64,000 nt of DNA. Origin: an uncultured Eubacteriales bacterium (GTDB lineage: Bacteria > Bacillota > Clostridia > Peptostreptococcales > Anaerovoracaceae). A program made the position numbers and the translations under genes. The stretch is taken from contig CADAEH010000005.1 in the NCBI GenBank assembly GCA_902786855.1, positions 1 to 64,000 of the forward strand, written 5' to 3'. Below, in pieces: positions 10,305 through 36,888 of the stretch. How positions within the stretch are numbered: position 1 is the stretch's first letter; each line of letters starts with the position of its first letter. The notes beneath the pieces are model-generated. The model was not told the origin of the DNA, made no database searches, and saw only the letters and a program-made list of their open reading frames with translations.

Positions 10305-10327
10305 TGTCCCCAAAAGGAGTATTTATA

Positions 10328-12749: not shown

Positions 12750-12759
12750 TCCTATATCA

Positions 12760-12866: not shown

Positions 12867-12904
12867 TGGATCCTGTATCGAAAAAAGTAAAGACGGTTGG
12901 CAGA

Positions 12905-15910: not shown

Positions 15911-16756
15911 ATGAAAACATATTATACAAATATTGAATCAAATAACAGAGGCTTCAGATTGAACCTGAAAGAATTGTGGGAATACAGAGATCTGGTCCTC
16001 TTGCTTACGAATAAAACTTTTACCCTATCCTATAAACAGACTGTGCTTGGACCTGCATGGATCATAATCAGTCCGATGCTTTCGAGTTTGATGTATATCG
16101 TCATTTTCGGAATCATTGCAGGTATAAGTACGAATGGTATTCCACAGGTGCTGTTTTATCTGTGCAGCACGACTTTCTGGACGCTTTTTGCAGCCAGTCT
16201 GACATCTAACGCATATACATTCCTCAACAATGCACACATTTTCGGCAAGGTGTATTTCCCAAGAATCGCTGTGCCTGTGTCCAATGTCCTCGTCAATCTC
16301 ATTAAGTTTGCTATTCAGATGATCATTGTAGTCGGACTGATCATATATTATACATGCAAAGGTGAAGTGGACCCGGTCTGGTATCTATGGCCGCTTCTGC
16401 CATTTATTCTGATACACATCAGCGTGATGGGCATGAGTTTTGGAGTCATAGTATCCAGCCTCACAACGAAATACCGAGATCTCTCTATTCTTGTATCATT
16501 CATTATGCAGTTGTGGATGTATGGTACTCCGGTCGTATATCCTCTGTCGCAGCTGGCTGATGGAAGTCTGATAAAGAAAATCATCATGTATAATCCAATG
16601 ACGGCACCGATGGAATTGTTCAGATATATTATGACCGGGAAGGGAGATGTCATGCCGGGATACTGCGCAGCAAGCGTTGCTTTGACGTTTGTTTGCACGC
16701 TCGTCGGGATCATAGTATTCAACCATGTAGAAAAAACATTCATGGATACAGTTTGA
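15911..16756 (+). CDS. ABC-2 polysaccharide export permease (Wzm/TagG-like)
   Basis: A 281-residue inner-membrane protein with six hydrophobic segments and the ABC2_membrane family pattern (LSYKQTVLGPAWIIISPM, KVYFPRIAVPVSNV, YNPMTAPMELFRYI). It forms the channel that moves completed lipid-linked glycans or teichoic acids across the membrane, partnered with the ATPase encoded next. Its stop overlaps the ATPase start by one base. Being first in the operon, it suggests the product is assembled in the cytoplasm and exported whole rather than polymerised by Wzy outside. Confidence 0.9.
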   Translation: MKTYYTNIESNNRGFRLNLKELWEYRDLVLLLTNKTFTLSYKQTVLGPAWIIISPMLSSLMYIVIFGIIAGISTNGIPQVLFYLCSTTFWTLFAASLTSNAYTFLNNAHIFGKVYFPRIAVPVSNVLVNLIKFAIQMIIVVGLIIYYTCKGEVDPVWYLWPLLPFILIHISVMGMSFGVIVSSLTTKYRDLSILVSFIMQLWMYGTPVVYPLSQLADGSLIKKIIMYNPMTAPMELFRYIMTGKGDVMPGYCAASVALTFVCTLVGIIVFNHVEKTFMDTV

Positions 16757-18048
16757 TGAAGCAGAAAGAGACAGCCGTTATAATGAGCGGCGTAAGTAAA
16801 AAATACAGATACGGGCAGATAGGAGCAGGAACACTGCAGGGAGACCTGAAAGAATGGTATCAGAGAAAAAAGAATGCCCGTGACAAGGATGAAAAAGCCG
16901 CAGATGCACCTTATTCGATCGGCGATACTTTTTATGCACTGAAAGATATAAACCTCACGATCAAAAGAGGTGAAACACTCGGAATAATAGGAAAGAACGG
17001 TGCAGGCAAGAGTACCCTCCTGAAACTTCTGAGCCGGATAACAGCTCCGTCTGAAGGCAATATAAAAATATACGGCAGAGTGGCATCGATGCTTGAGGTC
17101 GGTACAGGCTTTCACGGCGAATTGACCGGCCGCGAAAACATATATCTGAACGGAGCTATATTAGGTATGAACCGTGCCGAGATAACAGAGAAAATCGAAG
17201 ACATCATCGAATTTTCCGAAGTCGGTGATTTCATAGATACTCCGGTAAAGCGGTATTCCAGCGGAATGTATGTCAAACTTGGATTTGCTGTGGCTGCTCA
17301 TCTTGACAGTGAGATCATGATCATGGATGAGGTCCTCGCTGTCGGAGATATGGAATTTCAGCACAAGTGCCTTGACAGAATGAAAGCAGCAGCAAAAAAA
17401 GAGGGCAAAACGGTCCTGTACGTAAGCCACAATATGCACACGATCAGAAGACTGTGTGACAGGTGCATCGTTCTGGATAAGGGAAAGCTGGTTTTCGACG
17501 GAGATGTGGACAAGGCGACAGCCATCTATCTCGGTGCGGAAGATATCCAGCAGATCCGGTATGAATTCGATGCTGACTACAGGCCTTACGATGAATATAT
17601 CAGACTTAACAAACGGTTCAGCATGGATGTTCTCGAGGTATTGGATACACAGCTCCCGGAATATGATGAAGGAGACATACCGCATCTCAGACTTACATGC
17701 ACATCGCTGCAGCAATTCGCGAATGTAGGGTTCCGGTTCGAGTTCTGGTATCAGGACGGAACAAAAGTAGGAACAATGCTTTCAGGAAAAGCGACTGAAA
17801 TAAGAAAAGGGCAGAATGTTCTTGAACTCAGACCGGATCTGACACACCTTACACCGGGACAGTACAGAGCAGATCTCGTGGCATATCTGTACGACAGCGA
17901 TGGGAATGAGGACATACTTGACGGAGTTTACCCGGGGTTTGCTTTTTCTATAAGAAACAAGCTGGATGAACGGCATTATCTTGACTGGCATCATCAGTAT
18001 TGGGGCCATATACGTCTTCACGATATGACAGTAAACAGATGGCAGTAG
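16756..18048 (+). CDS. ABC ATPase for polysaccharide export with Wzt-C-like domain
   Basis: A 430-residue ATPase of the Wzt/TagH group, with Walker A GKNGAGKST (about 80-88), signature YSSGMYVKLGF, and Walker B IMIMDEVLAVGD. An extra C-terminal beta-rich domain (about 290-425) resembles Wzt-C. In O9a-type LPS systems that domain binds the modified non-reducing end of the glycan before export. If the same holds here, the terminal group would be made by genes of this operon, such as a LicD or methyltransferase. The start at 16756 overlaps the permease stop. The 63-bp upstream extension is rejected. Confidence 0.9.
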   Translation: MKQKETAVIMSGVSKKYRYGQIGAGTLQGDLKEWYQRKKNARDKDEKAADAPYSIGDTFYALKDINLTIKRGETLGIIGKNGAGKSTLLKLLSRITAPSEGNIKIYGRVASMLEVGTGFHGELTGRENIYLNGAILGMNRAEITEKIEDIIEFSEVGDFIDTPVKRYSSGMYVKLGFAVAAHLDSEIMIMDEVLAVGDMEFQHKCLDRMKAAAKKEGKTVLYVSHNMHTIRRLCDRCIVLDKGKLVFDGDVDKATAIYLGAEDIQQIRYEFDADYRPYDEYIRLNKRFSMDVLEVLDTQLPEYDEGDIPHLRLTCTSLQQFANVGFRFEFWYQDGTKVGTMLSGKATEIRKGQNVLELRPDLTHLTPGQYRADLVAYLYDSDGNEDILDGVYPGFAFSIRNKLDERHYLDWHHQYWGHIRLHDMTVNRWQ

Positions 18049-18064
18049 TAAGCAGGAGAGAGGA

Positions 18065-18901
18065 ATGGAACTAAAGGAACTGCAAAAAATAGAAATTGAT
18101 ATGCTCAAGGCAGTAACCGATCTTTGCGATAGTAATGGCCTGACATATTATCTTTATTGCGGAACTTTGCTTGGTGCAGTTCGTCATCAAGGCTTTATCC
18201 CTTGGGATGATGATATAGATATTGCAATGCCATTGAAGGATTATCGGAAATTCCTTAAACTCAGTGAAAAATTACCGGAGCCTTATGTGATTCAGTATCC
18301 CGGAAGCACCAGAGGATACTATCGGAACTGGGCCAGGGTGTTTGCTGATGGAACGACATTTATGGATCGGATACTTGTGGGGAAAGGCGTAACTGAATTC
18401 GGCATGCATCAGGGCTTTTTTCTGGATATCTATCCTATGATAGGAGCTGCAAAATCCGAAACAGGTCAGAAGATTCAAAGAGGACTTCTGCATATCGCAA
18501 GAGAATTGCGACGGACCGAATATTTCAGAGTAAGCGGAGTAAAAGTTAAGAAAAGACACAAAGTTGTAGCAATTTTTCCTTACGCGGTAAGGAAAAATCT
18601 CAGTCTGCTATGCCTCAGGGCGGCCATGTTTGATCCTGACAAAAGCGATATGATTGGGACAATTGATGACGCACCGTTCAGAGGTAAATACCAGTATGAT
18701 GACTGGAAGGCTCTGAAAAAAGCACCTTTTGAAGAACTCGAATTCTGGATTCCAAGGAGATATGATAAAGTGCTTACAATTATGTATGGAGATTACATGA
18801 AATTGCCGACGGAAGAGAAACGAACCGGTCATGCCAATGAAAAAACGATGATCATAGATGCAGATCGGGATTACAGAGAATATCAGGAAGCAAAGATATG
18901 A
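18065..18901 (+). CDS. LicD-family phosphotransferase (first of three)
   Basis: A 278-residue LicD protein carrying the family core GTLLGAVRHQGFIPWDDD (about 33-50) and DIYPM further on. LicD domains (nucleotidyltransferase fold) transfer phosphoryl-linked groups such as phosphocholine from CDP-choline to glycans. Others act as polyol- or sugar-phosphate transferases. GGAGAGAGG precedes the ATG, and its end overlaps the next start (ATGA). The neighbouring CDP-polyol-type genes hint at a non-choline substrate. Confidence 0.85.
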   Translation: MELKELQKIEIDMLKAVTDLCDSNGLTYYLYCGTLLGAVRHQGFIPWDDDIDIAMPLKDYRKFLKLSEKLPEPYVIQYPGSTRGYYRNWARVFADGTTFMDRILVGKGVTEFGMHQGFFLDIYPMIGAAKSETGQKIQRGLLHIARELRRTEYFRVSGVKVKKRHKVVAIFPYAVRKNLSLLCLRAAMFDPDKSDMIGTIDDAPFRGKYQYDDWKALKKAPFEELEFWIPRRYDKVLTIMYGDYMKLPTEEKRTGHANEKTMIIDADRDYREYQEAKI

Positions 18902-20253
18902 AAACAGTAATTACATATGGCGTCTTCGACCTTTTTCATGATGGACACCGCAGCTTGCTGGAGCGGGCCAGAGCACTTGGAGATAAGCTGATCGTAGGTG
19001 TGACTACAGATCAGTATGCATATCAGCGCGGCAAGATGTGTCTGGTAGATCCAATCGAAAAAAGGATCGAAAATGTTAAAAAAAGCGGTTTTGCCGATGA
19101 AATAATAATAGAAGACCATCACGGTCAGAAGGTCGAAGATATCAGCAGATATCATGTCGATATTTTTGCGATAGGCGATGACTGGCTGGGAAAATTTGAA
19201 TATCTGGAAAACATGTGTCAGGTGATCTACCTTAAACGGACTCCTGACATCTCTTCAACGTTGCTAAGGTACAGCAAGTATCCGTTTCTGAAAATCGGGA
19301 TAATTGGCAGCGGAAGAGTAGCCGGAAGGTTTATGAGGGAAGCCGGTTACATCCGTGAGATCCAGGTCCCTTGTGTTTATAATCCGCGCCTTGACAATTC
19401 AGAAAGTCTGCGCAGATTTCTGGAGAGTCATACATCGGTTATGAAAGTAAGGACTCTCGACAAACTCTTTGATCAGACAGACGCTGTATATATTGCGTCA
19501 CCTCATGAAACACATTTTGGATATGCAAAAGAAGCATTAAAAGCAGGGAAGCATGTCCTTTGCGAGAAACCTATGGCTTTCAGCAGGGAAGAGGCTGAGG
19601 AATTGTTTGAGATCGCAGAAGCCAATGATCTGGTTCTGATGGAGGGTATAAAGACAGCGTATTGCCCGGGCTTTGTAAAACTGATATCAATTGCGAAGAG
19701 CGGCCTCATCGGTGAGATCGTTAATATAGAAAGCTGTTTTACCAGACTCACTCCGCCGGGGCTCAGAGAATGGACAGATCTCAGATACGGCGGCAGCTTT
19801 ACAGAGCTGGGAAGCTATATCCTGCTTCCGATCGTAAAATTACTGGGAACAGAGGATCTTGAATGGAATTTCAGATCAATGCTCAACGAGAACGGTCTTG
19901 ATATTTTTACCAGACTTGAAGTCAGTAAGGGGGATATCATAGCAGCAGGGAGATGCGGCATCGGAGCAAAATCTGAGGGGCAATTGATCATCAGCGGAAC
20001 CAAGGGATATATCCTGACTGAAGCTCCATGGTGGAAAACCACTTATTTTGAGATACGGGGTGAAGATCCTAATTACAGGAAGAGATTCACAGCAGATTTT
20101 GAGGGCGATGGGATGAGATACGAAATCGCAGATCTGCTGTACCGCGTTCAGGGACATGAAGGAAGAGAGTTCAAACTGAAGAAAGAAGAGTCTGTTTTTA
20201 TGGCAGAAGTTTTTGGCTCATTCCTGAAAGGAAGAACGGAAAATGCGGTATGA
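18898..20253 (+). CDS. Fusion of TagD-like cytidylyltransferase and Gfo/Idh/MocA oxidoreductase
   Basis: A 451-residue two-domain enzyme. Residues 1-130 form a TagD/GCT-type nucleotidyltransferase (YGVFDLFHDGH, the HxGH at 14-17, with the RTPDISST tail motif). Residues about 131-451 form an NAD(P)-dependent Gfo/Idh/MocA oxidoreductase (IGIIGSGRVAGRF; CEKPMAF near 222; EGIKTAYCPGF). TarI/TarJ-type pairs reduce a keto-sugar phosphate and join it to CMP, making CDP-polyols for teichoic acids, though TarJ belongs to a different reductase family. A fused bifunctional CDP-polyol synthase is therefore a reasonable hypothesis. The first gene overlap is ATGA and the next is 11 bp. Confidence 0.85.
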   Translation: MKTVITYGVFDLFHDGHRSLLERARALGDKLIVGVTTDQYAYQRGKMCLVDPIEKRIENVKKSGFADEIIIEDHHGQKVEDISRYHVDIFAIGDDWLGKFEYLENMCQVIYLKRTPDISSTLLRYSKYPFLKIGIIGSGRVAGRFMREAGYIREIQVPCVYNPRLDNSESLRRFLESHTSVMKVRTLDKLFDQTDAVYIASPHETHFGYAKEALKAGKHVLCEKPMAFSREEAEELFEIAEANDLVLMEGIKTAYCPGFVKLISIAKSGLIGEIVNIESCFTRLTPPGLREWTDLRYGGSFTELGSYILLPIVKLLGTEDLEWNFRSMLNENGLDIFTRLEVSKGDIIAAGRCGIGAKSEGQLIISGTKGYILTEAPWWKTTYFEIRGEDPNYRKRFTADFEGDGMRYEIADLLYRVQGHEGREFKLKKEESVFMAEVFGSFLKGRTENAV

Positions 20254-21532
20254 GATTCGCCAGCTGCTTGAACATGGCATGAGTGTAGACAGAGAAACGG
20301 GTTTGCTTTATTCAGAACCCGGTTTTGCGGTCAATGCGGTTCCCGTCAGACTTCCTGCAGGATCCTGCATAAGGACCATCGATAAAACATTGAAATATCG
20401 CTGTTTCTATTACAGCCCTGAAATAGATGATAAGCTGATTTACACATACTGTTATCCGCCTGATGCGAACTGGACCACGTACATACCTGAGAAAACCGAA
20501 GATATTATGAGATCCGGCTGCAGATCTGTGGCTGAGGAATGTTTCATCAGGATATCGGTCAGAGATAAGGATATCGATCCGCACAGTACATTTAACGATG
20601 TGTTTTATATCGAGAAGGGAGAGTTTCACAGAAGCACACCGGGATGGCTGACAAAAGAGGCTGAGAGTACTTGCGCGAGAGCAGAAGCCGTGCGTCGCGA
20701 TGGCGATGCTGTGTTTTTGTTGCTCACTGATTCACATTATTCCACCGGATGCATATGGGATGATACGGTTCTAAGTCTGAAAACCGTAGCGAACAAGCTG
20801 ATGCCTGACGGTATCGTTTGTTTAGGAGACTTAACAGACGGAATGCTCTCATTCAGGCATACAAAAGGGATCACGGAAGATATCCTGAATGATCTGAAAC
20901 AGATATGCAGCCCGCTTTATATATGTCTGGGTAATCATGATCTCAACTATTTCAAGGGTAATCCTGAAAGGATGACTAGGCAGACGGGAGCCAGACTGAT
21001 CCTGGGAGATGAGCAGCTGTGGTACTTCAGAGATATACCGGACAGAAAACTCAGAATGATATTTCTTGATTCTTTCGATCCTGAAAGAAACGAGAGATAT
21101 GGGTTCGATGAACAGGAAATCATATGGCTGAGGAAAGTCTTGAGAAAAACCCCTAAGGGATATAAAGTCCTGGTTTTCTCACATTTAACGCCGCTTCCGG
21201 AAAACCATGTGTGGAGCACTGACATTTTGAACAGCAGCAAAGCCATGCATGCATTAGAAGATTTCAGCAAGAAAAAAAAGAACTCAGTCATAGGATGGAT
21301 CTATGGACATAACCATGCAGATCAGGTTATTTCATACAGAGATTTTCCTCTGATCAGTATCGGTTGCTGCAAACTGGAAGCCTTTAATGAACATAAACCA
21401 GAAGACGCAGTAACATATACAAGGAAAAAAGGCACCGGAACACAGGAACTCTGGGATATATTGCTGGTGCATAGCGATGGCAGTATGGATCTGATAAGAT
21501 TTGGCGCGGGAAAAGACCGCCACATCGCATAA
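20243..21532 (+). CDS. Calcineurin-like metallophosphoesterase with N-terminal beta region
   Basis: A 429-residue protein. Residues about 1-135 are an unassigned N-terminal region. The catalytic domain shows the full metal-site set: TDSHYS (about 162), GDLTDG (about 195), GNHD (about 231), FSHLTP and GHNH (about 355). There is no signal peptide, so it acts in the cytoplasm. A phosphatase is used in some CDP-glycerol and polyol-phosphate routes (for example the pneumococcal CDP-2-glycerol genes), and its position directly after the cytidylyltransferase-reductase fusion fits such a role. The substrate is inferred only. Confidence 0.8.
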   Translation: MRYEIRQLLEHGMSVDRETGLLYSEPGFAVNAVPVRLPAGSCIRTIDKTLKYRCFYYSPEIDDKLIYTYCYPPDANWTTYIPEKTEDIMRSGCRSVAEECFIRISVRDKDIDPHSTFNDVFYIEKGEFHRSTPGWLTKEAESTCARAEAVRRDGDAVFLLLTDSHYSTGCIWDDTVLSLKTVANKLMPDGIVCLGDLTDGMLSFRHTKGITEDILNDLKQICSPLYICLGNHDLNYFKGNPERMTRQTGARLILGDEQLWYFRDIPDRKLRMIFLDSFDPERNERYGFDEQEIIWLRKVLRKTPKGYKVLVFSHLTPLPENHVWSTDILNSSKAMHALEDFSKKKKNSVIGWIYGHNHADQVISYRDFPLISIGCCKLEAFNEHKPEDAVTYTRKKGTGTQELWDILLVHSDGSMDLIRFGAGKDRHIA

Positions 21533-21545
21533 GGAGACAGGTATA

Positions 21546-22391
21546 ATGATCAGTCTGAATGATGATATGCTGCGTCAGCTGCAAATGGTAGAGCTGGAAC
21601 TTCTGATAGAAGTGGACAGAATATGCAGAAAATGCGGTATTAGTTACAATATAATAGCCGGAACGATGCTGGGGGCTTACAGGCATAAAGGATTCATTCC
21701 ATGGGATGACGATGCTGATGTTGCAATGCTCAGAAACGAATATGAGCGATTCAGGGAAGCCTGCAGAAGCGAACTCGATGAGACAAGATTCTATTTTCAG
21801 GACCATACGTGTACGCCCGGGTACAGATGGGGATATGGTAAGCTGCGCAGAAAAAACACTCTGTTTCTCAGAGAATACCAGGAACACATGCCATATGAGC
21901 AGGGTGTATTCATAGATATATTTCCGCTTGATGCGATCCCGCAGAGCCAGATAGGAAGAAGCATAATGAATTTCAGATGTTTCTGCATACGTAAACTGCT
22001 TTGGTCAAAGGTAGGAAAAGTTGCTGACAGAAGTTCTTTCAAACGATGTGTTTTCACCTTGATGGACTGTGTACCTGAAAAAAATGTTCTCGCCAGACTG
22101 GATAAGATGATCGAAAAGGCCAGGAGTAAGGAGACCGACTGGGTCAGGATACTTACCTTCCCAACGCCAAACACCAAGTGGGGATACCGAAGAAGATGGT
22201 ATGAAGGAAACAGGGAAATTGTATTCGAGGGATACACTTTTCCCGGTGTCACGGATCCGGATGACTATCTTAGCTTTAAATTCGGTGAATATATGAAACT
22301 TCCTCCGGAAGGAGAGAGAAAAGCACATCCGGTATCGGATATCAGGCTCCTGGTTCCGGAATTCATGAAGGAAAAAAGTAATGACAGATGA
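21546..22391 (+). CDS. LicD-family phosphotransferase (second of three)
   Basis: A 281-residue LicD protein with the core GTMLGAYRHKGFIPWDDDAD (about 38-57) and DIFPLDAIP. It differs from the first LicD mainly downstream of the core, which suggests another donor or acceptor. ATG 21546 has AAGGAGAC upstream. The frame opening at 21501 overlaps the phosphoesterase and is rejected. Its 3' end overlaps the next gene by 11 bp. Confidence 0.85.
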   Translation: MISLNDDMLRQLQMVELELLIEVDRICRKCGISYNIIAGTMLGAYRHKGFIPWDDDADVAMLRNEYERFREACRSELDETRFYFQDHTCTPGYRWGYGKLRRKNTLFLREYQEHMPYEQGVFIDIFPLDAIPQSQIGRSIMNFRCFCIRKLLWSKVGKVADRSSFKRCVFTLMDCVPEKNVLARLDKMIEKARSKETDWVRILTFPTPNTKWGYRRRWYEGNREIVFEGYTFPGVTDPDDYLSFKFGEYMKLPPEGERKAHPVSDIRLLVPEFMKEKSNDR

Positions 22392-27041: not shown

Positions 27042-27481
27042 TGAAAGGGGAGCAGAAGCCTTATCAGATCGGATTGCTCATGGGAGTGTTCGACATGTTT
27101 CATATAGGACACCTGAATCTGATCAGAAGAGCGAAAGAACGGTGCGAATACCTGAGAGTGGGTGTTCTGAGCGATGAACTTGTAAAAAAATTCAAAGATA
27201 AATATCCTGTGATCCCTTTAGATGAGAGAATGGAGATCCTGGAAGCTATACGCTATGTAGACGAAGTGGTGGAAATCAATGATGATCCATCCCGGATAAT
27301 AGAGTGGAACCGGCGACCGTTTGACTGCTTTTTTTCCGGAGATGACTATAGGGGCAATACGTATTGGGACTGGGAACAGGGAGAACTCAGAAAACTTGGT
27401 GCAGATATTGAATTCTTCCCATATACGCAGAAGCAGAGCACAACGAAAATACGTAAAAAATTAGAAAAAGACGGTGAGTGA
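27041..27481 (+). CDS. TagD-like cytidylyltransferase
   Basis: A 146-residue nucleotidyltransferase with GVFDMFHIGH (HIGH at 21-24) and the QKQSTTKIRKK tail, a close match to glycerol-3-phosphate and related cytidylyltransferases that make CDP-activated alcohols. It is the second such domain in the operon, so two different CDP donors are probably made. One could serve LicD transfer. Tightly coupled: one-base overlap upstream and 3 bp before the next gene. Confidence 0.85.
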   Translation: MKGEQKPYQIGLLMGVFDMFHIGHLNLIRRAKERCEYLRVGVLSDELVKKFKDKYPVIPLDERMEILEAIRYVDEVVEINDDPSRIIEWNRRPFDCFFSGDDYRGNTYWDWEQGELRKLGADIEFFPYTQKQSTTKIRKKLEKDGE

Positions 27482-27484
27482 GAG

Positions 27485-28417: not shown

Positions 28418-28429
28418 GGAGACATGAGA

Positions 28430-29668
28430 ATGATCAAAGTAACGGTTGTAATACCTGTCTATAATGTAGAGGCGTACCTGCCTGCTTGTCTTGACAGTGT
28501 GCTTGGGCAGAGCCTTGAAGAAATCGAAATCATTTGCATCGATGATGCTTCGCCGGACAGATGCGGTGCTATTCTGGACGAGTATGCAGAAAAAGATAAA
28601 AGAGTGAAAGTCATACATCTTCCTGAAAATCATAAGCAGGGCTATGGCCGTAACAGAGGGGAAGAAGCTGCCCGGGGCAAATATATATATTTTCTGGACT
28701 CTGATGACATGATCACCGGTACAGCGCTTGAAGAAATGTATGAGATCGCAGAGGCGGACAAGCTCGATGGGATCATATTTGACTCTCAGGTACTGTATGA
28801 ATCAGAAGAGCTCAGAAAGAAGCATCATCTGGCATATCCGCCAAAACGCAGCGGACACTATGAAGATGCAGTTATGACAGGGTCTGATCTGCTGGACGCT
28901 TTTGTGGCACAGAAAGAATGGAATGTTTATGTTCAGCGTCAGTTCTGGAGACGGGAGTACCTTCAGGAGAATGATATCTATTCTACGGAAGGAATAGAAC
29001 ATGAAGACGAAATTTTTTCTTTCAAGGCCATGCTGCTGGCAGAACGCATGAGATATGTGCCAAAAGACTGGTTTATTCGCAGATATCGTGAAGGCTCTGT
29101 CATGACCAGAGGATATACAGATGATGATTTTCACGGGTACTTCATATGTTTCCGTGAAATGATCGATTTTGCAGAAAAATACGGCAAAAAAAGCGATGGC
29201 GCTCTGGAAAACATCTATCACATGTATGAGCGTATGCTTGCACTTTATCCACAGTTCTCTGCACAGGAGGATCCTCTTTCATGGTTCAGGACAGAAGAGG
29301 AAAAGAGAGCTTATAGGTTTTTCGCCTATGAACAGGATCTGAATGATCATTATCGTTCGTCGATCAACAAGATGAATCGGCTCGTGCCGCTTGATACTAA
29401 GATCTGGATCTATGGAGCAGGAGCAATAGGAGTCAGAGTTTGCCGCAGGTTTTTACGGGACGGAAATCAGGTCCGGGGATTCCTGGTCACAAACATCAGC
29501 GGTAATTCCGAAAAGCTGTTTGGTCTGCCTGTAATCGAGCAGGCACAGGCAGATATCGGGGAAGATGAACTGGTAATTGTTGCAGTGAACAATAAACTGA
29601 AGCCTGAGATATGCAGTCTGCTGGAAAAACGAGGGGTTAAATTCGCTGAATATCCAACATGGAGATAA
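28430..29668 (+). CDS. GT2 glycosyltransferase with C-terminal Rossmann-like module
   Basis: A 412-residue protein. The GT2 domain is at about 1-310 (TVVIPVYNVEAYLPACLDSV; FLDSDDMI; acceptor-side EHEDEIFSF). The C-terminal about 320-412 is a Rossmann-like module (IWIYGAGAIGVRVCRRF) like those of neighbouring proteins. ATG 28430 is chosen over 28424 because AAGGAG lies 8 bp from it and only 2 bp from the other. It probably acts in the cytoplasm on the growing polymer. Confidence 0.85.
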   Translation: MIKVTVVIPVYNVEAYLPACLDSVLGQSLEEIEIICIDDASPDRCGAILDEYAEKDKRVKVIHLPENHKQGYGRNRGEEAARGKYIYFLDSDDMITGTALEEMYEIAEADKLDGIIFDSQVLYESEELRKKHHLAYPPKRSGHYEDAVMTGSDLLDAFVAQKEWNVYVQRQFWRREYLQENDIYSTEGIEHEDEIFSFKAMLLAERMRYVPKDWFIRRYREGSVMTRGYTDDDFHGYFICFREMIDFAEKYGKKSDGALENIYHMYERMLALYPQFSAQEDPLSWFRTEEEKRAYRFFAYEQDLNDHYRSSINKMNRLVPLDTKIWIYGAGAIGVRVCRRFLRDGNQVRGFLVTNISGNSEKLFGLPVIEQAQADIGEDELVIVAVNNKLKPEICSLLEKRGVKFAEYPTWR

Positions 29669-29669
29669 T

Positions 29670-32210
29670 ATGACCGAAGTTGAATATGTAATTGCCGGAT
29701 TCGATGAAAAATTTCATACTTTTAAGGAAAGCAAGATAGTATTGCACGGATCCCGTGAATATGCAGAAGCCATCATAGACCGTTTTCACAGCAGTTATCA
29801 TTTCACCGGAGTTATGAGCAAAGACCCTATAGAAGGTGAGTGTTTTCATGGACTCAGGGTTCTGCGCGAAGAAGACATCCCACAGCTGGACATAGACATG
29901 ATCATTCTGACTGAACGTGTCAAATACGCTGAAGCGGTGTACATGTCAATCAGCAGGATATGCAAAGAAAATGGTATTCTTCTGTACAACATGTATGGTC
30001 TTGATGAGCATAAAGTTCATGCAGAAATAGAAGCGTGCGAATACAAAAGTGCCAGGGGCTGGGAAGAAATATGCCGCCCTTATGATGTGATTGCCTTTGA
30101 GGTGGTTGACACTTTAAGTGTTATTGTTGGGTCAAAATGGTATGAACAGGATGAGACTATACGTCCTGTCTTTCAGGAATTGCTCCCGTGGCTGTTAGCA
30201 GAGGGCAAAGATATACAACTGAGTCTGCGTAAATCCAGCCCGGAGGAAAAGCAGATCACCATACTCAGGGAGTCCGGACTGATCCCTGACCTTGATAGCC
30301 GGCTGATCAGACGACAGGGCGAAGATCTGTCGTTCAGGACTCTCGTAGAAAACAATGCCGGAAAAAAGATTCTCTATATAGGTTCCGGTCTGGTAAATGA
30401 GTGTATCCTGCCACGCTGCTATGGTATAGATACTTACAGATATGTTACACCGTTTTTTGACTGTTTTGCGCCGATACCCGGTGATGAATATGATCGGATC
30501 GCATTTTCTGAGAACCTCAGGGAACAAGTCATTTCCGCTATCATGGAAGCGGATGTGGTATCGTTTGACATTTTTGACACGCTCATTCAGCGTATGACTC
30601 TGATCCCGACAGATGTCTATCTTATTGTTGAAAATAAAGCGAAAGCGAAAGGACTGCCTGCAGACCATTTTGCGCAGATGCGTCTGGAAACAGAAAGAGA
30701 ACTGAGTCTTCCGAATATTTATGAAATATATGATGCACTGGAACGCAAATGCGGGTGGAGCTCAGAAGAAAGAAGAAAAATGATCGATCTGGAACTGGCT
30801 ACAGAACGTCTGGTGATCCATCCCAGAACGGAGATCACAGAGCTTCTGAAGTTTGCTGCTGCGCAGAAAAAAACAGTAGTACTTACGAGTGATATGTATC
30901 TACCGGAGACTGTTCTCAGGCAAATACTTGCAGATAACGGAATCGAAGGCTACAGTGAGCTATTCGTTTCCTGCGATATCCGAAAATCAAAATACGATGG
31001 ACTCTATGAAAAGCTGGGGTCTCTTTGTACTGATAAAGAAAGAATACTGCATATCGGTAACGACATACAGGCAGACGGAACCTGCTGCGATAAATATGGT
31101 ATCAAAAGTATGATTCTTCCTTCAGCCCTGGCGATGGCCTGTGCCGGCAACTGGCGCAGAAGTGTTGAGTGTGCTGAATCCCTTATGGAAAGATGCCTTG
31201 TCGGGATGAGCATTGCAGAGATGTTCAGAGATCCGTTCTGTAATCCGAATCTGAAGGAGCTGCCTTCGGAGGAGAGGCTGCGCAGGTTTGCCGCAGGAGT
31301 AACAGGACCGTTGGTGACAGGATATATGACCTGGCTTATCCATGAACTCAGGAAGGCCGCATTCGATAAGGTGCTGTTTCTGGCCAGAGATGGTTACATG
31401 CCTGAGAGGATCTACCGGAAAATCCAGCTGGAGCCTCCTTTGCCTGAGTCCGTCTATTTTTATGCGAACAGACATGCAGCTTTCCTGACATGTGCTGACG
31501 AGAGAACAGCAATGGAATGGGTCGCATATGTAGGAAAATGGTCCGGTCTGAAAGGACTTGATATCCTGAAAAAAATATACTGTATGGATGACAAGGATAT
31601 AATCCCTCCATATGAAGGAGAAACAGCAGAAGAACTGTTGATGAGAAATATGCCCGGGATCAGGAAAATCGCAGCTGCAGCAAGAACCGGATATAAAGCC
31701 TATGCAGATCAATGCGGACTGAAGGAAGGAAAATCATATGCTGTTGTTGATTTCATCGCAACAGGATCAACACAGATGTATCTGGATAAGAGCCTTCCGA
31801 TGGAGTTTAAAGGTTTTTATTTTGGAAATTATGAAGAAAACAGATGCGAGATACAGGATTATTTAAGAGGTGATAATCCAACTCTTCTTTCGAATTATAT
31901 TGAGCTGGAATCGTTTTTCTCCGCTCCGGAGCCTTCCATCGAACGTATAGCAACAGATGGCACAGTTGAGTTTCAACAGGAGGTGCGTACTGATCAGGAA
32001 ATCGAAGACCTGAAGTATGTACTTGACAGATCAGAGAAATTTGCCGGAACATTTTTTGAACTGTTTTACGAGGAGGGAGAATTCATAAGACCTGTTATTA
32101 CAGAAGAAATGTTTGCAGCGGATGGTTATCATTGGGTGCAGCAGAATGCCTATGATGACTGGCTGAAGAAGCAGATCCAGACAAGAAAGTGGAAGGGCGG
32201 AAGAAAATGA
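29670..32210 (+). CDS. Rossmann plus degenerate HAD plus active HAD protein (COG5610-like)
   Basis: An 846-residue protein. Residues about 18-110 are a Rossmann-like module. About 137-283 are a degraded HAD domain in which motif I is FEVVDTL, motif II is LSLRKSS and motif IV is GSG. About 296-500 are a full HAD phosphatase (FDIFDTL, LTSDMYL, KSKYDGL, HIGNDIQAD). About 530-846 are the conserved C-terminal region of COG5610-type proteins (VLFLARDGYMPERIY). The active HAD has the expected Asp nucleophile and acid, while the first copy has lost all the catalytic positions I could align. One base separates it from the upstream gene. It may hydrolyse a sugar- or polyol-phosphate. Confidence 0.8.
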   Translation: MTEVEYVIAGFDEKFHTFKESKIVLHGSREYAEAIIDRFHSSYHFTGVMSKDPIEGECFHGLRVLREEDIPQLDIDMIILTERVKYAEAVYMSISRICKENGILLYNMYGLDEHKVHAEIEACEYKSARGWEEICRPYDVIAFEVVDTLSVIVGSKWYEQDETIRPVFQELLPWLLAEGKDIQLSLRKSSPEEKQITILRESGLIPDLDSRLIRRQGEDLSFRTLVENNAGKKILYIGSGLVNECILPRCYGIDTYRYVTPFFDCFAPIPGDEYDRIAFSENLREQVISAIMEADVVSFDIFDTLIQRMTLIPTDVYLIVENKAKAKGLPADHFAQMRLETERELSLPNIYEIYDALERKCGWSSEERRKMIDLELATERLVIHPRTEITELLKFAAAQKKTVVLTSDMYLPETVLRQILADNGIEGYSELFVSCDIRKSKYDGLYEKLGSLCTDKERILHIGNDIQADGTCCDKYGIKSMILPSALAMACAGNWRRSVECAESLMERCLVGMSIAEMFRDPFCNPNLKELPSEERLRRFAAGVTGPLVTGYMTWLIHELRKAAFDKVLFLARDGYMPERIYRKIQLEPPLPESVYFYANRHAAFLTCADERTAMEWVAYVGKWSGLKGLDILKKIYCMDDKDIIPPYEGETAEELLMRNMPGIRKIAAAARTGYKAYADQCGLKEGKSYAVVDFIATGSTQMYLDKSLPMEFKGFYFGNYEENRCEIQDYLRGDNPTLLSNYIELESFFSAPEPSIERIATDGTVEFQQEVRTDQEIEDLKYVLDRSEKFAGTFFELFYEEGEFIRPVITEEMFAADGYHWVQQNAYDDWLKKQIQTRKWKGGRK

Positions 32211-33871
32211 TCAAACATTACAAGACAATCAGATCCTCTTTAAAAGAAAAGAACATCTACATCTGGGATGTCGGCATCAGATGTATACAAGTGTTTTCGC
32301 ACCTTGCATGCCGCGGCATACGTGTCAAAGGATTTGTAACAAATTTCGATGAATATGTTGGCAATACTATCTGCGCACTGCCTGTCATCTCACCTGAGGA
32401 GTTTGCAGCAGATGAAAATGGGATCATAATCGTTCATGATGCCGTGGGTCCCGGAACATTCAGTCTGGTTTGCGGATACGGAGCTGCATTCAGATACAGC
32501 GATGCCATGCAAATCAACGAGGACCTAGAGGGTGCAGAGTTTTATCTGTATGGGACAGGGGCGCATGCCTGGAAGATAATAAAGGATCTTAAAAACCGTG
32601 ATATGATTCTTAAGGCCTTCATTGAGAGCAACCCGGACTGCGCCGGAAAGATTCTGGATATACCGGTTATTACCCCCGGTGATCTTTCTCCTGCCGGACA
32701 TGCAACAGTGATCATTTCTTCCGAATCTCAGAGGTGGAGCCTGGAAATGCTTGAGACATTGTGCAGGAATGGATTCAAAGGTGATGTTTATGTCAGCGAA
32801 TTGCTTCCATTCTCAGACAGATGGGGCCTGGACCCTTTTTTGATGCTTGACCTGGTGGCGCGTGAACAGAGAAAACTGTTTCTTTGTTGTGAGGAAGAAC
32901 TCGGCAGCGAATGGCTTCATTCCATGCTTGAGCTGTATGGATTCAGTTATACCCGGGAAGTGTGCTATGAAGGATCGGAGCAGCGGGGTCTTGAAGATAT
33001 ATGGTCATTGGCAGAGGAAGATCCGGAACAGAGTGCACTGCTGATTTTTGCGCTGGATCCGGGAAGAAGAGCAGATATCATAGAAGCTGCAAAAGAGATC
33101 GGATTTACAGAAGAAGGCAGAAATTATTCAGGTATACAGGAATGTTGTTATAACAGAGCACATCTGGCAGGCCCGCTTTTATATGAAGTAGATAAAAGGT
33201 TAGTGTTCAGTCTGGATTATTCGCCTGTTGGCGGAATACCCGGGTGGGCCATATATGGAAACGAGGAAAAGGCAACAAAGAAAATTCTTGTGCTTGGAGG
33301 AAGTACTTCATCTGAAGTATATATTCCGGAAAACTGGGTATCAAGGTTACAAAGGCTATGCACGGAGCATGGTTTCCATACAGCTGTATATAATGGGGCT
33401 TATGAGGGGAATATGGCCATCGATGAACTCATCAGACTGACAAGAGGCCTGCAGACCATAAGACCCGATATCGTGATAAGTATGAGCGGTCTGAATGATC
33501 TGAAGCCTGCACTCAACAAGTTTGAAAAACATTATGGCGAAAATGAGGTTGAACACTGGCGGAGAATCGAGCTATACATGAAAGAAATGACTGAAGCTGA
33601 AGGCGCGGCTTTTTTCGCTTTCATGCAGCCGATCAACAACTGTATGAGAGCATCATCGCTTGATGAAGCTCTGATGTTTATTCAGGAGGGACATTTCAAC
33701 AGAAAAACAAGCAGTATGGATCTCGTTTCCTCAGATGACTTTTACTGCAATATGATCGATCGTTTTCATCACAGACCGGGAATGTTCATTGACTCATCCC
33801 ACTATTCCGGACCCGGTCATGAGGAGATAGCGAAATACGTATTTGAAATAATAAAAGGAGCATTGGCTTAA
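32207..33871 (+). CDS. Two Rossmann-like modules plus SGNH hydrolase
   Basis: A 554-residue protein. Two consecutive Rossmann-like modules (NIYIWDVGIRCIQVF at about 17-30; EFYLYGTGAHAWKII at about 110-125) are followed by a C-terminal SGNH/GDSL hydrolase. That domain has GGSTSS with the nucleophile Ser near 367, block SGLNDLK, and DSSHYSGPGH near the end supplying Asp/His. SGNH enzymes in such clusters add or remove O-acetyl groups. No signal peptide, so it acts inside the cell. ATG 32207 overlaps the previous stop (ATGA). A GTG at 32189 is in frame but further upstream. Confidence 0.78.
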   Translation: MIKHYKTIRSSLKEKNIYIWDVGIRCIQVFSHLACRGIRVKGFVTNFDEYVGNTICALPVISPEEFAADENGIIIVHDAVGPGTFSLVCGYGAAFRYSDAMQINEDLEGAEFYLYGTGAHAWKIIKDLKNRDMILKAFIESNPDCAGKILDIPVITPGDLSPAGHATVIISSESQRWSLEMLETLCRNGFKGDVYVSELLPFSDRWGLDPFLMLDLVAREQRKLFLCCEEELGSEWLHSMLELYGFSYTREVCYEGSEQRGLEDIWSLAEEDPEQSALLIFALDPGRRADIIEAAKEIGFTEEGRNYSGIQECCYNRAHLAGPLLYEVDKRLVFSLDYSPVGGIPGWAIYGNEEKATKKILVLGGSTSSEVYIPENWVSRLQRLCTEHGFHTAVYNGAYEGNMAIDELIRLTRGLQTIRPDIVISMSGLNDLKPALNKFEKHYGENEVEHWRRIELYMKEMTEAEGAAFFAFMQPINNCMRASSLDEALMFIQEGHFNRKTSSMDLVSSDDFYCNMIDRFHHRPGMFIDSSHYSGPGHEEIAKYVFEIIKGALA

Positions 33872-35712
33872 TGTACATACTTGGAATATCAGCTCTATAT
33901 CATGATTCTGCCGCAGCCTTGATACAGGACGGTCAGATCATCTCAGCTGCACAGGAAGAGCGGTTTACAAGAGTTAAAATGGACAAGACGATCCCGCACA
34001 ATGCCATAAGGTACTGCCTGAAGGAGGCAGGGATCGATGCTGCAGAGCTGGATGCGGTTGTTTATTACGACGATCCCGCACTGACTCTGCACAGGTATAC
34101 ATCGAATATCAAAGCGGCAGCAGACGATACTGAAGATCTGATCCGTTTTAGTTTTGATTCCATTTTCAAACAGAAACTCTGGATAGAAAGGCTTCTCAGA
34201 AATAGTATGGGGAGACTGGGAAAAGAGGACAAGCTCTATGTTACCAGGCATCATCTGTCTCACGCTGCTTCAGCTTTCTATCCTTCACCGTTCGATAAAG
34301 CCGCTGTTTTGACGATAGATGGAGTCGGTGAATGGGATACTACAACGATAGGTTACGGATCCGGAAATGATCTTACACTTCTCAAAAAACTGGAATATCC
34401 GCATTCGCTGGGATTGCTTTACAGTGCTTTCACGTACTTTTGCGGGTTCCGCGTGAATTTCGGCGATTACAAGCTGATGGGCCTGGCTCCATATGGTGAA
34501 CCGGTTTACGCTGATCTTATCCGGGAAAAACTGATCCACATCAAACCCGACGGGTCGTTCAGGCTTGGACTTGAATACTTTGATTTCCAATATGGACGAG
34601 CCATGACGAATGAAGCTTTCGCGCAGCTGTTCGGAGGAGAAAGACGACTTCCTGAAGGGCGTATCACAAAAAGAGAAATGGATATGGCGGCATCGGTACA
34701 GGCAGTGACTGAGGAAGTGGTCATGAAACTTGCCAAAACAGCAAAGGCGCTGACCGGTGCGGATAAACTTGTTATGGCCGGCGGAGTTGCGCTGAACTGT
34801 GTTGCGAACGGGCGCCTTTTAAAAAGCGGTCTGTTCGATGATATCTGGGTACAGCCTGCTGCCGGAGATGCCGGCGGAGCTTTAGGTGCGGCACTGGCAT
34901 TCTATCATCTGCATATCAGAGGTGAACGACCGATGAGGGCAGATGGCAGAGACCTTCAGCAGGGCTCTTTTCTCGGACCTGCTTATTCCGGCGAGGAGAT
35001 AAGAGCTTATCTCGATAAGGAAGAGATCCCGTATCATCATTTCTCAAGCCACAGTCATCTGATGGATCATATCGCGGAAATGCTGGATGATCAGAAAGTT
35101 ATTGGCGTGTTTGCAGGAAGAATGGAATATGGACCGAGAGCTCTGGGCCATCGCAGTATAATTGCAGACCCGAGATCTGAGTACATGCAATCCAGACTGA
35201 ATCTCAGTATTAAATACAGAGAGTCATTCAGACCTTTTGCGCCGGCGGTATTACAGGAAAGAAGCGCTGATTATTTTGATTTACCACAATCAAAATGTGA
35301 TCTGCCGTACATGCTGATATGTGCGGATGTTCTTGACCGGGAAGATCTCGGATTTGATATGCGCGAGAAACTCAGCCGTGACAATGACATGCTGGCGATC
35401 GTAAACAGAAAAAGGTCCGGCATACCTGCTGTTACTCATGTAGATTACAGTGCAAGAGTACAGACTGTAGATCAGGAAACAAATCCGTTCTTTCATTCGA
35501 TCATCAAGGCATTTGAGAAGAAAACGGGATGCGGAGTGGTGATCAACACTTCGTTCAATGTCAGAGGGGAACCGATCGTATGTTCTCCGGAAGATGCGTA
35601 TCATTGCTTCATGAATACAGAGATGGATATATTGGTGCTGCAGGATTGTGTTCTGTATAAGGACGAACAGCCACAGCTGCAAAAGAGGAGGGATCGTTAT
35701 GAACCAGACTAA
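33871..35712 (+). CDS. Carbamoyltransferase, NodU/CmcH family
   Basis: A 613-residue enzyme with an N-terminal Kae1-like domain (LGISALYHDSAAALI; HHLSHAASAFYPSPFD near 127; FGDYKLMGLAPYGEP; VMAGGVALNCVANG) and a C-terminal YrdC-like domain (EYGPRALGHRSI near 418; TSFNVRGEPI). These enzymes make carbamoyl-adenylate from carbamoyl phosphate and ATP and carbamoylate hydroxyls of sugars. It probably decorates the polymer or its precursor. The length is normal. One-base overlap upstream and 14-bp overlap downstream. Confidence 0.92.
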   Translation: MYILGISALYHDSAAALIQDGQIISAAQEERFTRVKMDKTIPHNAIRYCLKEAGIDAAELDAVVYYDDPALTLHRYTSNIKAAADDTEDLIRFSFDSIFKQKLWIERLLRNSMGRLGKEDKLYVTRHHLSHAASAFYPSPFDKAAVLTIDGVGEWDTTTIGYGSGNDLTLLKKLEYPHSLGLLYSAFTYFCGFRVNFGDYKLMGLAPYGEPVYADLIREKLIHIKPDGSFRLGLEYFDFQYGRAMTNEAFAQLFGGERRLPEGRITKREMDMAASVQAVTEEVVMKLAKTAKALTGADKLVMAGGVALNCVANGRLLKSGLFDDIWVQPAAGDAGGALGAALAFYHLHIRGERPMRADGRDLQQGSFLGPAYSGEEIRAYLDKEEIPYHHFSSHSHLMDHIAEMLDDQKVIGVFAGRMEYGPRALGHRSIIADPRSEYMQSRLNLSIKYRESFRPFAPAVLQERSADYFDLPQSKCDLPYMLICADVLDREDLGFDMREKLSRDNDMLAIVNRKRSGIPAVTHVDYSARVQTVDQETNPFFHSIIKAFEKKTGCGVVINTSFNVRGEPIVCSPEDAYHCFMNTEMDILVLQDCVLYKDEQPQLQKRRDRYEPD

Positions 35713-35950
35713 TAATAAGGATACTTTCTTTCAGGACGGGGCAGCGGATATGAATACATCCGAAATGATTTACGCCTATCATTTTGACACTTTGCGGGAA
35801 ATGAGAGCACTTCTGTCACAAAGACTGCAGACAAAAATGACTGATGAAGAGATCTTTGAGGCAGTAAAAACAGCTTTCAGGAACAAGTCTGCGGCAGGTA
35901 CTGCCACCGGTCCTTCCGGAGATATCGTAGACTATATTTACGAGATGTGA
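35699..35950 (+). CDS. Small protein of unknown function after the carbamoyltransferase
   Basis: An 83-residue acidic protein with no family I recognise. The middle is helical (SEMIYAYHFDTLREMRALL, DEEIFEAVKTAFRN), with a Gly/Ala/Ser-rich turn and a short hydrophobic end IVDYIYEM. AGAGGAGG before ATG 35699 and overlap with both neighbours (14 bp and 4 bp) show that it is a real translated gene. A binding partner for the carbamoyltransferase is a guess from position only. Confidence 0.7.
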   Translation: MNQTNNKDTFFQDGAADMNTSEMIYAYHFDTLREMRALLSQRLQTKMTDEEIFEAVKTAFRNKSAAGTATGPSGDIVDYIYEM

Positions 35951-36888
35951 AATCTGAAAATGATATTCACTTTCAGTTAGAAAAACACAAATTCACAGTA
36001 ATAAGAGATTTACCACGAATGAATATTAACGGACGGGACTACTCTGCTGATGTCCCGCAGATAAAGTGCAGAAACTATAAAGAAGACGGCATAGACAGAA
36101 TCATTGTGCATTCAGGAAGATTCCATGCAGATGATGTTTTTTGTGTTGCCATGGTCTTGATGTGCTACCCGGACGCAAATGTATTACGTGTAGCATCAGT
36201 TGCTGATGAGTACAGCCATGACCCACACACCATTGTTGCAGATATAGGGTCCGGCAAGTACGATCATCATCAGCCTGACGCAGAGCGGAGGGCAGACGGA
36301 AACTTGTATGCCGCCTGTGGTCTTGTCTTCAGGGACTTCAAACATATTTTGTTCAACGGTGATCCCGGCGCGGCAGATACTTTTGAGAGAGAGTATATCA
36401 TTCCGGTTGAGATCGCCGACAATGGGGGCACAGAGAACCCGTTGTCACTTGCGGTATCTGCTTTCAACCCAACATGGGATTCAGATAAGAACCGTGACGA
36501 AATGTTTGCAAAAGCTGTGATATTTGTTCAGTCAGTTATAGAGAGAGCGATAGTGCAGCTTGATGCAGAGATAAGAGCCCATGGCAAGGTAATGAAGGCT
36601 TTAGGCGATTCAGACGGCAGAATTGTGTTACTTCCGGAGTATATGCCCTGGCGGAATACTCTGATAGACAGCAGTGCTTTATTCGTAGTCTATCCATCCA
36701 AAGGATCCTGGAATCTTCATGCGGTCCCGGCAAAAAAGAGCAGCAAAAGCCCAAAGAAAAAGCTTCCGGAAGAGTGGATCTGTAAAAGACCGGAAAACTG
36801 CATTTTCGTTCATCCTCAGTTGTTTGTTGCTGCTTTCACGACAGAATCTGCGGCACTGGATGCAGCAAATCTTGCAGCAGGAAAATAA
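35947..36888 (+). CDS. MYG1-family (UPF0160) DHH-like hydrolase
   Basis: A 313-residue protein with the MYG1 motifs HSGRFHADDVF (about 56-66), DIGSGKYDHHQ (about 98-108) and EIADNGG. Eukaryotic MYG1 is a 3'-5' exoribonuclease. Bacterial members are little studied, though the DHH-type motifs imply a metal-dependent phosphoesterase. Translation begins at GTG 35947, overlapping the previous stop as GTGA, so it is coupled to the glycan operon. It lacks the extended N-terminal region of some members. Whether it belongs functionally to the locus is unknown. Confidence 0.8.
   Translation: MKSENDIHFQLEKHKFTVIRDLPRMNINGRDYSADVPQIKCRNYKEDGIDRIIVHSGRFHADDVFCVAMVLMCYPDANVLRVASVADEYSHDPHTIVADIGSGKYDHHQPDAERRADGNLYAACGLVFRDFKHILFNGDPGAADTFEREYIIPVEIADNGGTENPLSLAVSAFNPTWDSDKNRDEMFAKAVIFVQSVIERAIVQLDAEIRAHGKVMKALGDSDGRIVLLPEYMPWRNTLIDSSALFVVYPSKGSWNLHAVPAKKSSKSPKKKLPEEWICKRPENCIFVHPQLFVAAFTTESAALDAANLAAGK

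Follow-up and report, generated by a model that had tools for sequence, protein, structure and literature searches.

What kind of surface polymer can be built by a gene cluster with three LicD domains and an exporter of the ATP-binding cassette (ABC) type, Wzm/Wzt, but no TagF-like polymerase? This question is raised by an operon at positions 15,911-36,888 of a 64,000-nucleotide stretch of DNA (the window) from an uncultured gut bacterium of the Eubacteriales, family Anaerovoracaceae (assembly GCA_902786855.1, contig CADAEH010000005.1). The window makes up the first 64 kb of its contig, which is 178 kb long, and the genome is 2.9 Mb in size and 87% complete. Operon genes are labelled g1-g14 in this analysis (Table 1), genomes are given G-numbers and fetched loci L-numbers. 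The best reading of the predicted proteins is that the product is a phosphodiester-bearing, pentose-containing exported glycan. We consider it probable that the operon builds and exports one ABC-exported surface glycopolymer, to which LicD enzymes would add alcohol phosphates from two donors linked to cytidine diphosphate (CDP). An earlier note on this DNA had proposed a carbamoylated wall polymer decorated with phosphodiesters. Its parts list was mostly right. Pfam analysis bore out both exporter proteins, the Wzm permease and the Wzt ATPase, as well as the carbamoyltransferase, and it found LicD domains three times and CTP_transf_like and GT2 domains twice each. It had overlooked the metallophosphoesterase g5, the reductase fused in g4, the methyltransferase-like and kinase-like parts of g8, and the ribofuranosyltransferase in g12.

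The homology of g12 to Bcs3 of Haemophilus influenzae type b (Hib) is the strongest single result, and it brings ribofuranose derived from phosphoribosyl pyrophosphate (PRPP) into the predicted chemistry. The label "HAD", previously given to this gene, described its phosphatase correctly but left the PRPP transferase half unrecognized. When the single g12 sequence was searched against PDB, Bcs3 was the sole match at E values of up to 1 (6.6e-13). A four-member profile, built from the window protein and three relatives, matched Bcs3 residues 385-920 with an E value of 2.7e-27, covering both the phosphatase and the ribosyltransferase, and matched nothing else at 0.01. In a fold search with the predicted structure (mean predicted local distance difference test score, pLDDT, 67), ranks 1-8 were taken by six Bcs3 chains (E values of 8.6e-23 to 1.2e-18), followed by two chains of the Thermobacillus composti ribofuranosyltransferase 7shg (4.5e-13 and 4.8e-13). 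The HAD nucleophile is kept as Asp300 in FDIFDT (D386 of Bcs3), and the acids of the PRPP site are kept as Asp574 in ARDG (D680 of Bcs3) and Asp694, which stands at E818 as a change from Glu to Asp. The roles of these three Bcs3 residues have been described, and the phosphatase and PRPP transferase of Bcs3 insert ribofuranose between polyol phosphates (PMC10299916). By homology, g12 is a HAD phosphatase joined to a PRPP-type, Bcs3-like ribofuranosyltransferase, with both activities predicted. With a Bcs3-like g12, LicD and GT2 enzymes need not be the sole means of chain extension, and the earlier conclusion that polymerization must occur through those modules does not hold. A degenerate second HAD-like start (FEVVDT at aa 143) was also seen by eye upstream of the intact one, in aa 120-295 of g12 (30027-30551).

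Neither PF04464 nor any Wzy or Wzx family was found among the Pfam matches (E values of up to 0.01) of the operon proteins, as the earlier note had claimed. The lack of Wzy and Wzx is expected of an ABC-transporter pathway, and the operon carries Wzm and Wzt together with biosynthesis genes, the arrangement that defines ABC-transporter-dependent assembly. The transfer of alcohol phosphates would fall to the LicD domains of g3, g6 and g8. Homologues of g6, approximately 65% identical over nearly the full length, occur in loci carrying a g4-type gene. The role of g5 can only be guessed from relatives that are fused to GDPD (L030, L038, and L046) or to LicD (L049 and L060).

The first CDP-linked donor would come from g4. 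The two cytidylyltransferases of the earlier note are both present, as PF01467 domains of g4 and g9, but that of g4 is fused to a reductase that had not been noticed. The g4 protein matched glycerol-3-phosphate cytidylyltransferase in PDB (6.3e-30). A five-sequence alignment was searched against genome contigs, and at least 562 of 584 candidate stretches were confirmed, of which 80 were kept. Among the matches listed, relatives were found in Lachnospiraceae, Paenibacillus, Selenomonadaceae, Treponema, Akkermansia, Bacteroidales, Actinobacteria, and others. The HxGH motif and the glycines that bind nicotinamide adenine dinucleotide (NAD) were present in all 81 sequences, g4 included, and the Lys of EKP in 64 of them. 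Neighbors were counted on the same strand within 300 bp, which gave 66 upstream and 60 downstream genes (2 of the 80 loci were not placeable). LicD, by Pfam, preceded the g4-type gene in 16/66 cases and followed it in 6/60; GDPD did so in 3/66 and 13/60, and PF04464 was a downstream neighbor in 2/60. Local profiles, which saw the fusion itself in 78 of the 80 loci, detected LicD in 45 of the fetched stretches, GDPD in 29 and both in 22, together with a metallophosphoesterase in 8, the kinase in 6, the ribofuranosyltransferase in 3 and Wzm in 3. We propose that g4 is a CDP-polyol synthase that would work like Bcs1 of Hib, although the reductase and cytidylyltransferase domains of Bcs1 presumably belong to other families than those of g4.

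Two further observations were made in the g4-type loci. Fifteen of the 66 upstream neighbors encode proteins of 845-909 aa that all match each other (225/225 ordered pairs, self included; L033, L035, L036, L041, L042, L044, L045, L047, L048, L050, L056, L058, L059, L064, and L079). This family matches no local profile, LicD included, seems to be without a Pfam assignment, and is possibly a further transferase. In L078 (4807-6681), a g9-type domain, a g4-type cytidylyltransferase and a Gfo/Idh/MocA domain are joined in one 624-aa protein, an architecture that would naturally connect the two CDP routes proposed here.

The second route would run through g8 and g9. The g8 gene (24,813-27,041) encodes a methyltransferase-like, a kinase-like and a LicD part. 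L060 and L049, close relatives of its first 460 residues, have an intact region for motif I of the S-adenosylmethionine (SAM) site, which is missing in g8. The kinase-like part has no Pfam match, but by motif it carries the catalytic Asp, Asn and Asp, with DMIPLN...YDQE in g8 against D351, N356 and D369 of WbdD. The pattern D-x4-N...D/N-x-E occurs in 30 of the 35 family rows (the printed match in L060 is not at the catalytic site, which is visible in the alignment). The first Foldseek matches of g8 include several phosphoethanolamine N-methyltransferases; these would suit an amino-alcohol, and any methyltransferase of this fold may equally explain them. Both fused proteins, g4 and g8, scored below every NCBIfam equivalog cut-off.

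The company kept by the methyltransferase-kinase family fits a role in making the donor. LicD and a g9-type gene come after it in both G176 and G298; in G400 it forms a fusion with LicD, and the neighboring gene is g9-type. In Butyrivibrio YAB3001, G648, G589, and G440 it is fused to a g9-type domain that is 48-53% identical to g9 and 30-34% identical to the g4 domain. The family was found in 24 of 391 genomes of the class, the window's own included, and 25 places were fetched from the other 23. In twenty of these, Wzm and/or Wzt is at most six genes away, and in four the gene is next to LicD or fused to a g9-type domain; the last (L172) has neither partner within six genes. LicD was found in none of the 20 exporter-associated places within the fetched stretch (16-20 kb each; 3.8 kb in L164), and it was present in the stretches of L162 and L172. 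A maximum likelihood tree of the kinase part was built from 35 rows. Ten of these lie beyond the class scan (window included); they stem from a scan of the order or were picked because their locus has a g4-type gene, and the sample is therefore uneven; it also holds the near-copies L165/L166, L134/L136, and L178/L182. The LicD/cytidylyltransferase label was set by hand after reading the neighbors, and L172, with no Wzm/Wzt near, and L030 were left unlabelled. One branch (99/98) separated 13 rows with LicD or g9-type partners, among which the window g8 sits, from 20 rows with exporter neighbors. Given this near-clean split, it can be tested whether a single enzyme family has come to serve in glycan capping as well as in donor synthesis.

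The exporter side of this tree deserves separate mention. Methyltransferase-kinase genes stand beside Wzm/Wzt in many Clostridia (L164, L167-L171, and L173-L186), and their products, some with coiled-coil-like tails, are candidate WbdD-like chain terminators in Gram-positive relatives. By analogy with WbdD, they may cap glycan chains.

Taken together, homology supports ribofuranosyl transfer from PRPP (g12), UDP-xylose formation (g10), ABC export (g1/g2), carbamoylation (g14) and LicD phosphotransfer (g3, g6, and g8); the substrates, the donor alcohols, the order of steps, the product and the anchor are what we infer from the gene set. In the proposed pathway, g12 would transfer ribose-5-phosphate from PRPP and then dephosphorylate it to leave ribofuranose, g10 would supply UDP-xylose, and g7 and g11 would attach further sugars. 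The fused g4 protein would reduce a keto- or aldo-phosphate and cytidylylate it to give a first CDP-alcohol, and the kinase-like part of g8 together with g9 would provide a second CDP-activated alcohol phosphate. The three LicD domains would then move the alcohol phosphates to the glycan, between sugars or as side groups, replacing a TagF-type transferase. Carbamoylation would be performed by g14, g13 may esterify or trim, g5 may hydrolyze phosphate esters, and g1/g2 would export the polymer. The product probably contains ribofuranose and xylose and is probably carbamoylated, and besides a wall polymer it may be a capsule or a protein-linked glycan. In a bolder version, an exporter-type methyltransferase-kinase would have been recast as a small-molecule kinase that acts with a cytidylyltransferase and LicD in an undescribed CDP-alcohol pathway, and a LicD-based counterpart of the Bcs3 polymerase would complete a TagF-free ribofuranosyl phosphodiester polymer; we regard this combination as rather doubtful.

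No cluster with an identical gene set was found, either in genome searches with four operon proteins or in the paper searches. The earlier statement that no described polymer has exactly this gene set thus stood in the genome and paper searches, but the modules recur together in other Clostridia. At a threshold of 1e-30, the g4 protein matched 8 of 100 relatives, its own genome included, and none of the stretches around the matches in the seven others held the whole set. Two genomes of the same genus hold partial sets. In G022, a UXS relative (60%), Wzm, Wzt and a g4-type gene followed directly by LicD lie within approximately 26 kb; in G044, the g4-type gene is accompanied by LicD genes and a Wzm-like gene. 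The matches in G035 (second match; short contigs only in this genome), G028, and G021 are limited to the cytidylyltransferase half. In G400, from another genus of the family, relatives of g7, g11, g10, g8 and g9 lie on one 5.9-kb contig with 34-55% identity. G176 and G298 hold g12-type genes, the kinase, LicD, a g9-type gene and an SDR, and the module of G176 adjoins what reads as a flagellar operon. The mix in Clostridium sp. chh4-2 comprises Wzm, Wzt, the kinase, LicD-MPE, GDPD, GCT-GFO, the ribofuranosyltransferase, LicD and GT2.

Several observations weigh against a single pathway that makes two CDP donors for LicD. The whole-model TM-scores of g12 are low, at 0.37-0.39 to Bcs3 and 0.27-0.28 to 7shg (query-normalized), and the serines S678 and S707 of the Bcs3 phosphate pocket align to Ala572 and Asn600 of g12 in an alignment read by eye. 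No kinase was found for g8 by sequence profiles: of 11 PDB matches, ten fell in the methyltransferase part, ZK177.8 (E value of 0.2) being the exception, and with an enlarged profile the best 60 of 97 PDB matches all fell in the methyltransferase part, with no kinase and no WbdD chain. The predicted structure of g8 is of poor quality (mean pLDDT 59.9), and the best 50 rows of each of its two fold lists were all of the methyltransferase fold. Because that part filled the lists, the kinase fold of g8 is putative. The best NCBIfam equivalogs of g9 were RfaE domain II, an adenylyltransferase, and then TagD, both below cut-off, and the use of cytidine triphosphate (CTP) by g9 is therefore only assumed. 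LicD was absent from the fetched stretches of G648, G589, and G440, which have the g9-type fusion. The split of the kinase tree is imperfect in that L172, which has LicD in its 20-kb stretch and no Wzm/Wzt, groups with the exporter-associated rows. The genes are also sparsely distributed: besides the window's own genome, g8 relatives at 1e-60 were found in 3 of 394 genomes of the order and g7 relatives in one genome. Finally, all three LicD enzymes might just decorate an ordinary glycan.

This last possibility is the core of a serious rival, because phosphate in the backbone is only predicted: the locus would be an ordinary mosaic capsule or an S-layer or protein-glycan locus, in which the backbone, made by the GT2 enzymes and g12, is neutral and LicD enzymes merely decorate it. 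The GT2 genes, the exporter, the carbamoyltransferase and the patchy distribution are typical of variable polysaccharide loci, the S-layer glycan of Clostridioides difficile Ox247 is likewise ribose-containing and ABC-exported, with a terminal cyclic phosphate (PMC6254364), and the related module of G176 lies by a flagellar operon. However, three LicD domains and two apparent CDP-activation routes exceed the needs of one decoration, and no oligosaccharide ligase family appears in the Pfam matches of the operon proteins. We give a decorated neutral glycan real weight, as the less probable explanation. A recombinational origin is very improbable in our view. The operon would then join at least two unrelated clusters that do not act as one pathway, as could be suspected from the g7-g11-g10-g8-g9 relatives that stand alone in G400 (at a contig end, so that more may be missing), from g4-type genes that travel with LicD and GDPD and mostly without the kinase, and from an IS21-like transposase and IstB pair at 28-1976. 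The composite is made less likely by the small gaps within the operon, at most 16 bp, by a G+C content close to that of the window, and by the similar module mix of Clostridium sp. chh4-2.

A different function for g8 was also considered. As a WbdD-like terminator, its kinase would phosphorylate the non-reducing end, LicD would complete a phosphodiester cap recognized by the Wzt extension, and g9 would serve another LicD. The domain order of methyltransferase and kinase is that of WbdD (PMC3482155), most family members stand near an exporter, as the window operon does with its own Wzm/Wzt and Wzt extension, and of six exporter-side proteins inspected by eye, L164, L168, and L175 end coiled-coil-like, as does L169 at its very end. 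Against this stand the loss of SAM motif I, the LicD domain found where WbdD has its coiled coil, and the placement of g8 among family members that have a g9-type enzyme or LicD as fusion partner or neighbor; for these reasons WbdD was lowered as an identity for g8. The lack of a WbdD chain among the best 60 of 97 PDB matches of the enlarged profile points the same way, without showing unrelatedness. The terminator role is thus weakened, and we consider it unlikely. The exported glycopolymer with LicD-borne alcohol phosphates from two CDP donors remains the reading that we prefer.

Table 1. Predicted elements of the operon, with positions in the window.
Element	Assignment	Position	Strand	Basis
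Promoter candidate	Sigma-70-like, TTGATT-17-TATAAT	15810..15838	+	10/12 consensus bases
g1	Wzm, ABC-2 type permease	15911..16756	+	PF01061 E 4.7e-15; NF050109 galactan exporter permease E 4.8e-16, below cut-off
g2	Wzt ATPase with C-terminal extension of ~170 aa	16756..18048	+	PF00005
g3	LicD-type phosphotransferase	18065..18901	+	PF04991 131 bits; PWDDDID motif
g4	TagD-like cytidylyltransferase fused to Gfo/Idh/MocA oxidoreductase	18898..20253	+	PF01467 and PF01408
g5	Calcineurin-like metallophosphoesterase	20243..21532	+	PF00149 E 4.4e-12; metal motifs DSH/GDLTD/GNHD/GHNH
g6	LicD-type phosphotransferase	21546..22391 (start possible at 21,501)	+	PF04991 127 bits
g7	Rossmann-like N-terminus, unassigned part, GT2, C-terminal DUF6270	22381..24816	+	PF00535, PF19786
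g8, N-terminal	Methyltransferase-like part without SAM motif I	24813..25397	+	L060/L049 alignments; methyltransferase fold matches
g8, middle	Kinase-like part, D353-x4-N358...DQE; putative fold	25404..26126	+	Motif and tree
g8, C-terminal	LicD domain	26256..26936	+	PF04991 173 bits; fukutin-related protein E 1.9e-5
g9	Small nucleotidyltransferase, cytidylyltransferase-like	27041..27481	+	PF01467
g10	UXS-like UDP-glucuronate decarboxylase (SDR)	27485..28417	+	PDB match E 6.9e-101
g11	GT2 glycosyltransferase with C-terminal Rossmann-like module	28424..29668	+	PF00535 129 bits
g12	Rossmann-like stretch, HAD phosphatase (aa ~295-490), PRPP transferase (aa ~540-800)	29670..32210	+	Bcs3 homology
g13	Rossmann-like modules with SGNH-like C-terminus, possible esterase/transferase	32189..33871	+	PF13472 E 0.0016, below cut-off
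g14	NodU-type carbamoyltransferase	33871..35712	+	PF02543 297 bits, PF16861 235 bits
Sixteenth ORF	Small, no family found	about 35699..35950	+	Missed in the earlier count
MYG1	MYG1/UPF0160 gene, last of operon, translationally coupled	35947..36888	+	PF03690 E 4.4e-32

The operon is an unbroken run of 16 open reading frames (ORFs), all intact and on the forward strand. With the chosen starts, 10 of the 15 junctions overlap by 1 to 22 bp and the other five are gaps of 1-16 bp; a gap of 136 bp follows position 36,888. The G+C content is 45.1%, against 44.6% for the window. The earlier description of one promoter and 15 mostly overlapping genes was right as to the overlaps and one gene short in its count. 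Its promoter has a candidate match that does not rise above chance, as promoter-like sites in the stretch were not above those in shuffled sequences (30 observed vs 37.2 shuffled, sd 6.4).

Among the remaining operon proteins, the best NCBIfam match of g2 was a teichoic acid export ATPase, below cut-off. The Wzt-C-like domain once assigned to it corresponds to its C-terminal extension, which matched no Pfam Wzt-C model. The best PDB matches of g10 were UDP-glucuronate decarboxylases (E values of 6.9e-101 to 4.7e-100), far ahead of the next family (2.4e-38), in agreement with the UXS-like label, and its Tyr-x3-Lys motif is present (YDEGK at 144). Rossmann-like modules are similar among g7, g11 and g13 (E values of 4e-5 to 0.004; g11 vs g13, 4e-5), and the same comparison did not support such similarity for g12. 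An exact match of 12 residues between two g13 slices in this comparison is an artefact, as the slices overlap. A ParB-like domain suggested by eye in g7 (aa 110-265) was dropped, as it had no Pfam match. The former SGNH assignment corresponds only to the weak C-terminal match of g13, which carries the motifs GGST, SGLND and DSSH. No relative of MYG1 was found at 1e-20 in 47 other genomes of the genus, and a role for this gene in the polymer pathway is unproven.

Initiation and anchoring are not encoded in the operon; elsewhere in the genome there are TagO-like (2 matches) and LCP (2) genes, a strong candidate UDP-sugar dehydrogenase (the best of 6 matches, 2 of them over cut-off) and further Wzm-like genes. 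Nine TagF-type (PF04464) matches were found, all on contig C1, and other wall polymers are therefore likely made too. On the same contig, a locus at 310396-317584 (G000:C1, L027) holds TagF-like, LicD and, by eye, CDP-ribitol-type genes (IspD-like and alcohol dehydrogenase). Together with the extra Wzm-like genes, this locus suggests that such polymers are of more than one kind in this organism.

Within the window, positions 5640-10153 encode a Gtr-like extracytoplasmic glycosylation cassette with a GtrII-type glucosyltransferase, a GT2 that is GtrB-like by position, a methyltransferase, DUF1919 and a small membrane protein that is GtrA-like by eye, with no NCBIfam match. This cassette could decorate the same polymer. 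Two large surface-protein-like genes lie just upstream of the operon (10295-15760), one with GLUG/fn3 and the other with a CotH kinase domain and Big_2 repeats, and a sodium:neurotransmitter-type symporter is encoded outside the operon on the reverse strand (41805-43187).

Among known systems, the Hib capsule (Bcs1 and Bcs3) resembles the proposed pathway in that one protein reduces a pentulose phosphate and activates it with CTP, giving a CDP-polyol, and in its HAD phosphatase, PRPP ribofuranosyltransferase and ABC export (PMC10299916). In Hib, however, the TagF-like CroT transfers the polyol phosphate, a step proposed here for LicD, and the window operon has GT2, UXS, carbamoyltransferase, kinase-like and metallophosphoesterase parts beyond those of Hib. 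The O-antigen loci O4 and O7 of Klebsiella pneumoniae share a separate PRPP ribofuranosyltransferase and Wzm/Wzt export, and O7 terminates in a methyl phosphate from a methyltransferase-kinase pair, but LicD and CDP-alcohol enzymes are not mentioned for these loci in the available portions of the paper (PMC11231755). The Ox247 S-layer glycan is likewise clostridial, ABC-exported, ribose-bearing and phosphate-terminated; it differs in being rhamnose-based and ligase-attached to protein, and the portions available do not mention LicD or CDP-alcohol genes (PMC6254364). In the route proposed for the type A flagellin modification of C. difficile (CD0240-CD0244), a small molecule placed on a glycan undergoes phosphorylation, activation by CTP, phosphotransfer and methylation (PMC10714395), with a TagF-like transferase and a nucleotidyltransferase resembling GDP-mannose pyrophosphorylase where the window has LicD and a CTP_transf_like enzyme. 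The Lic-1 phosphocholine pathway (LicA, LicB, LicC, and LicD) also places a kinase, a cytidylyltransferase and LicD in series (PMC10434233). In the window, by contrast, the kinase-like part, recognized by motif, is fused to a methyltransferase remnant and LicD, and no choline permease, or any transporter besides Wzm/Wzt, was found among the scanned operon proteins.

The authors of the Bcs3 study stated that the polymerases of complex Gram-positive wall teichoic acids had not been identified (PMC10299916). The operon and its relatives provide concrete candidates for expression, namely the PRPP ribofuranosyltransferase, the LicD enzymes and the fused CDP-alcohol synthases. As every proposed step has a known counterpart, the system would be a new mix of known modules and not a wholly new one.

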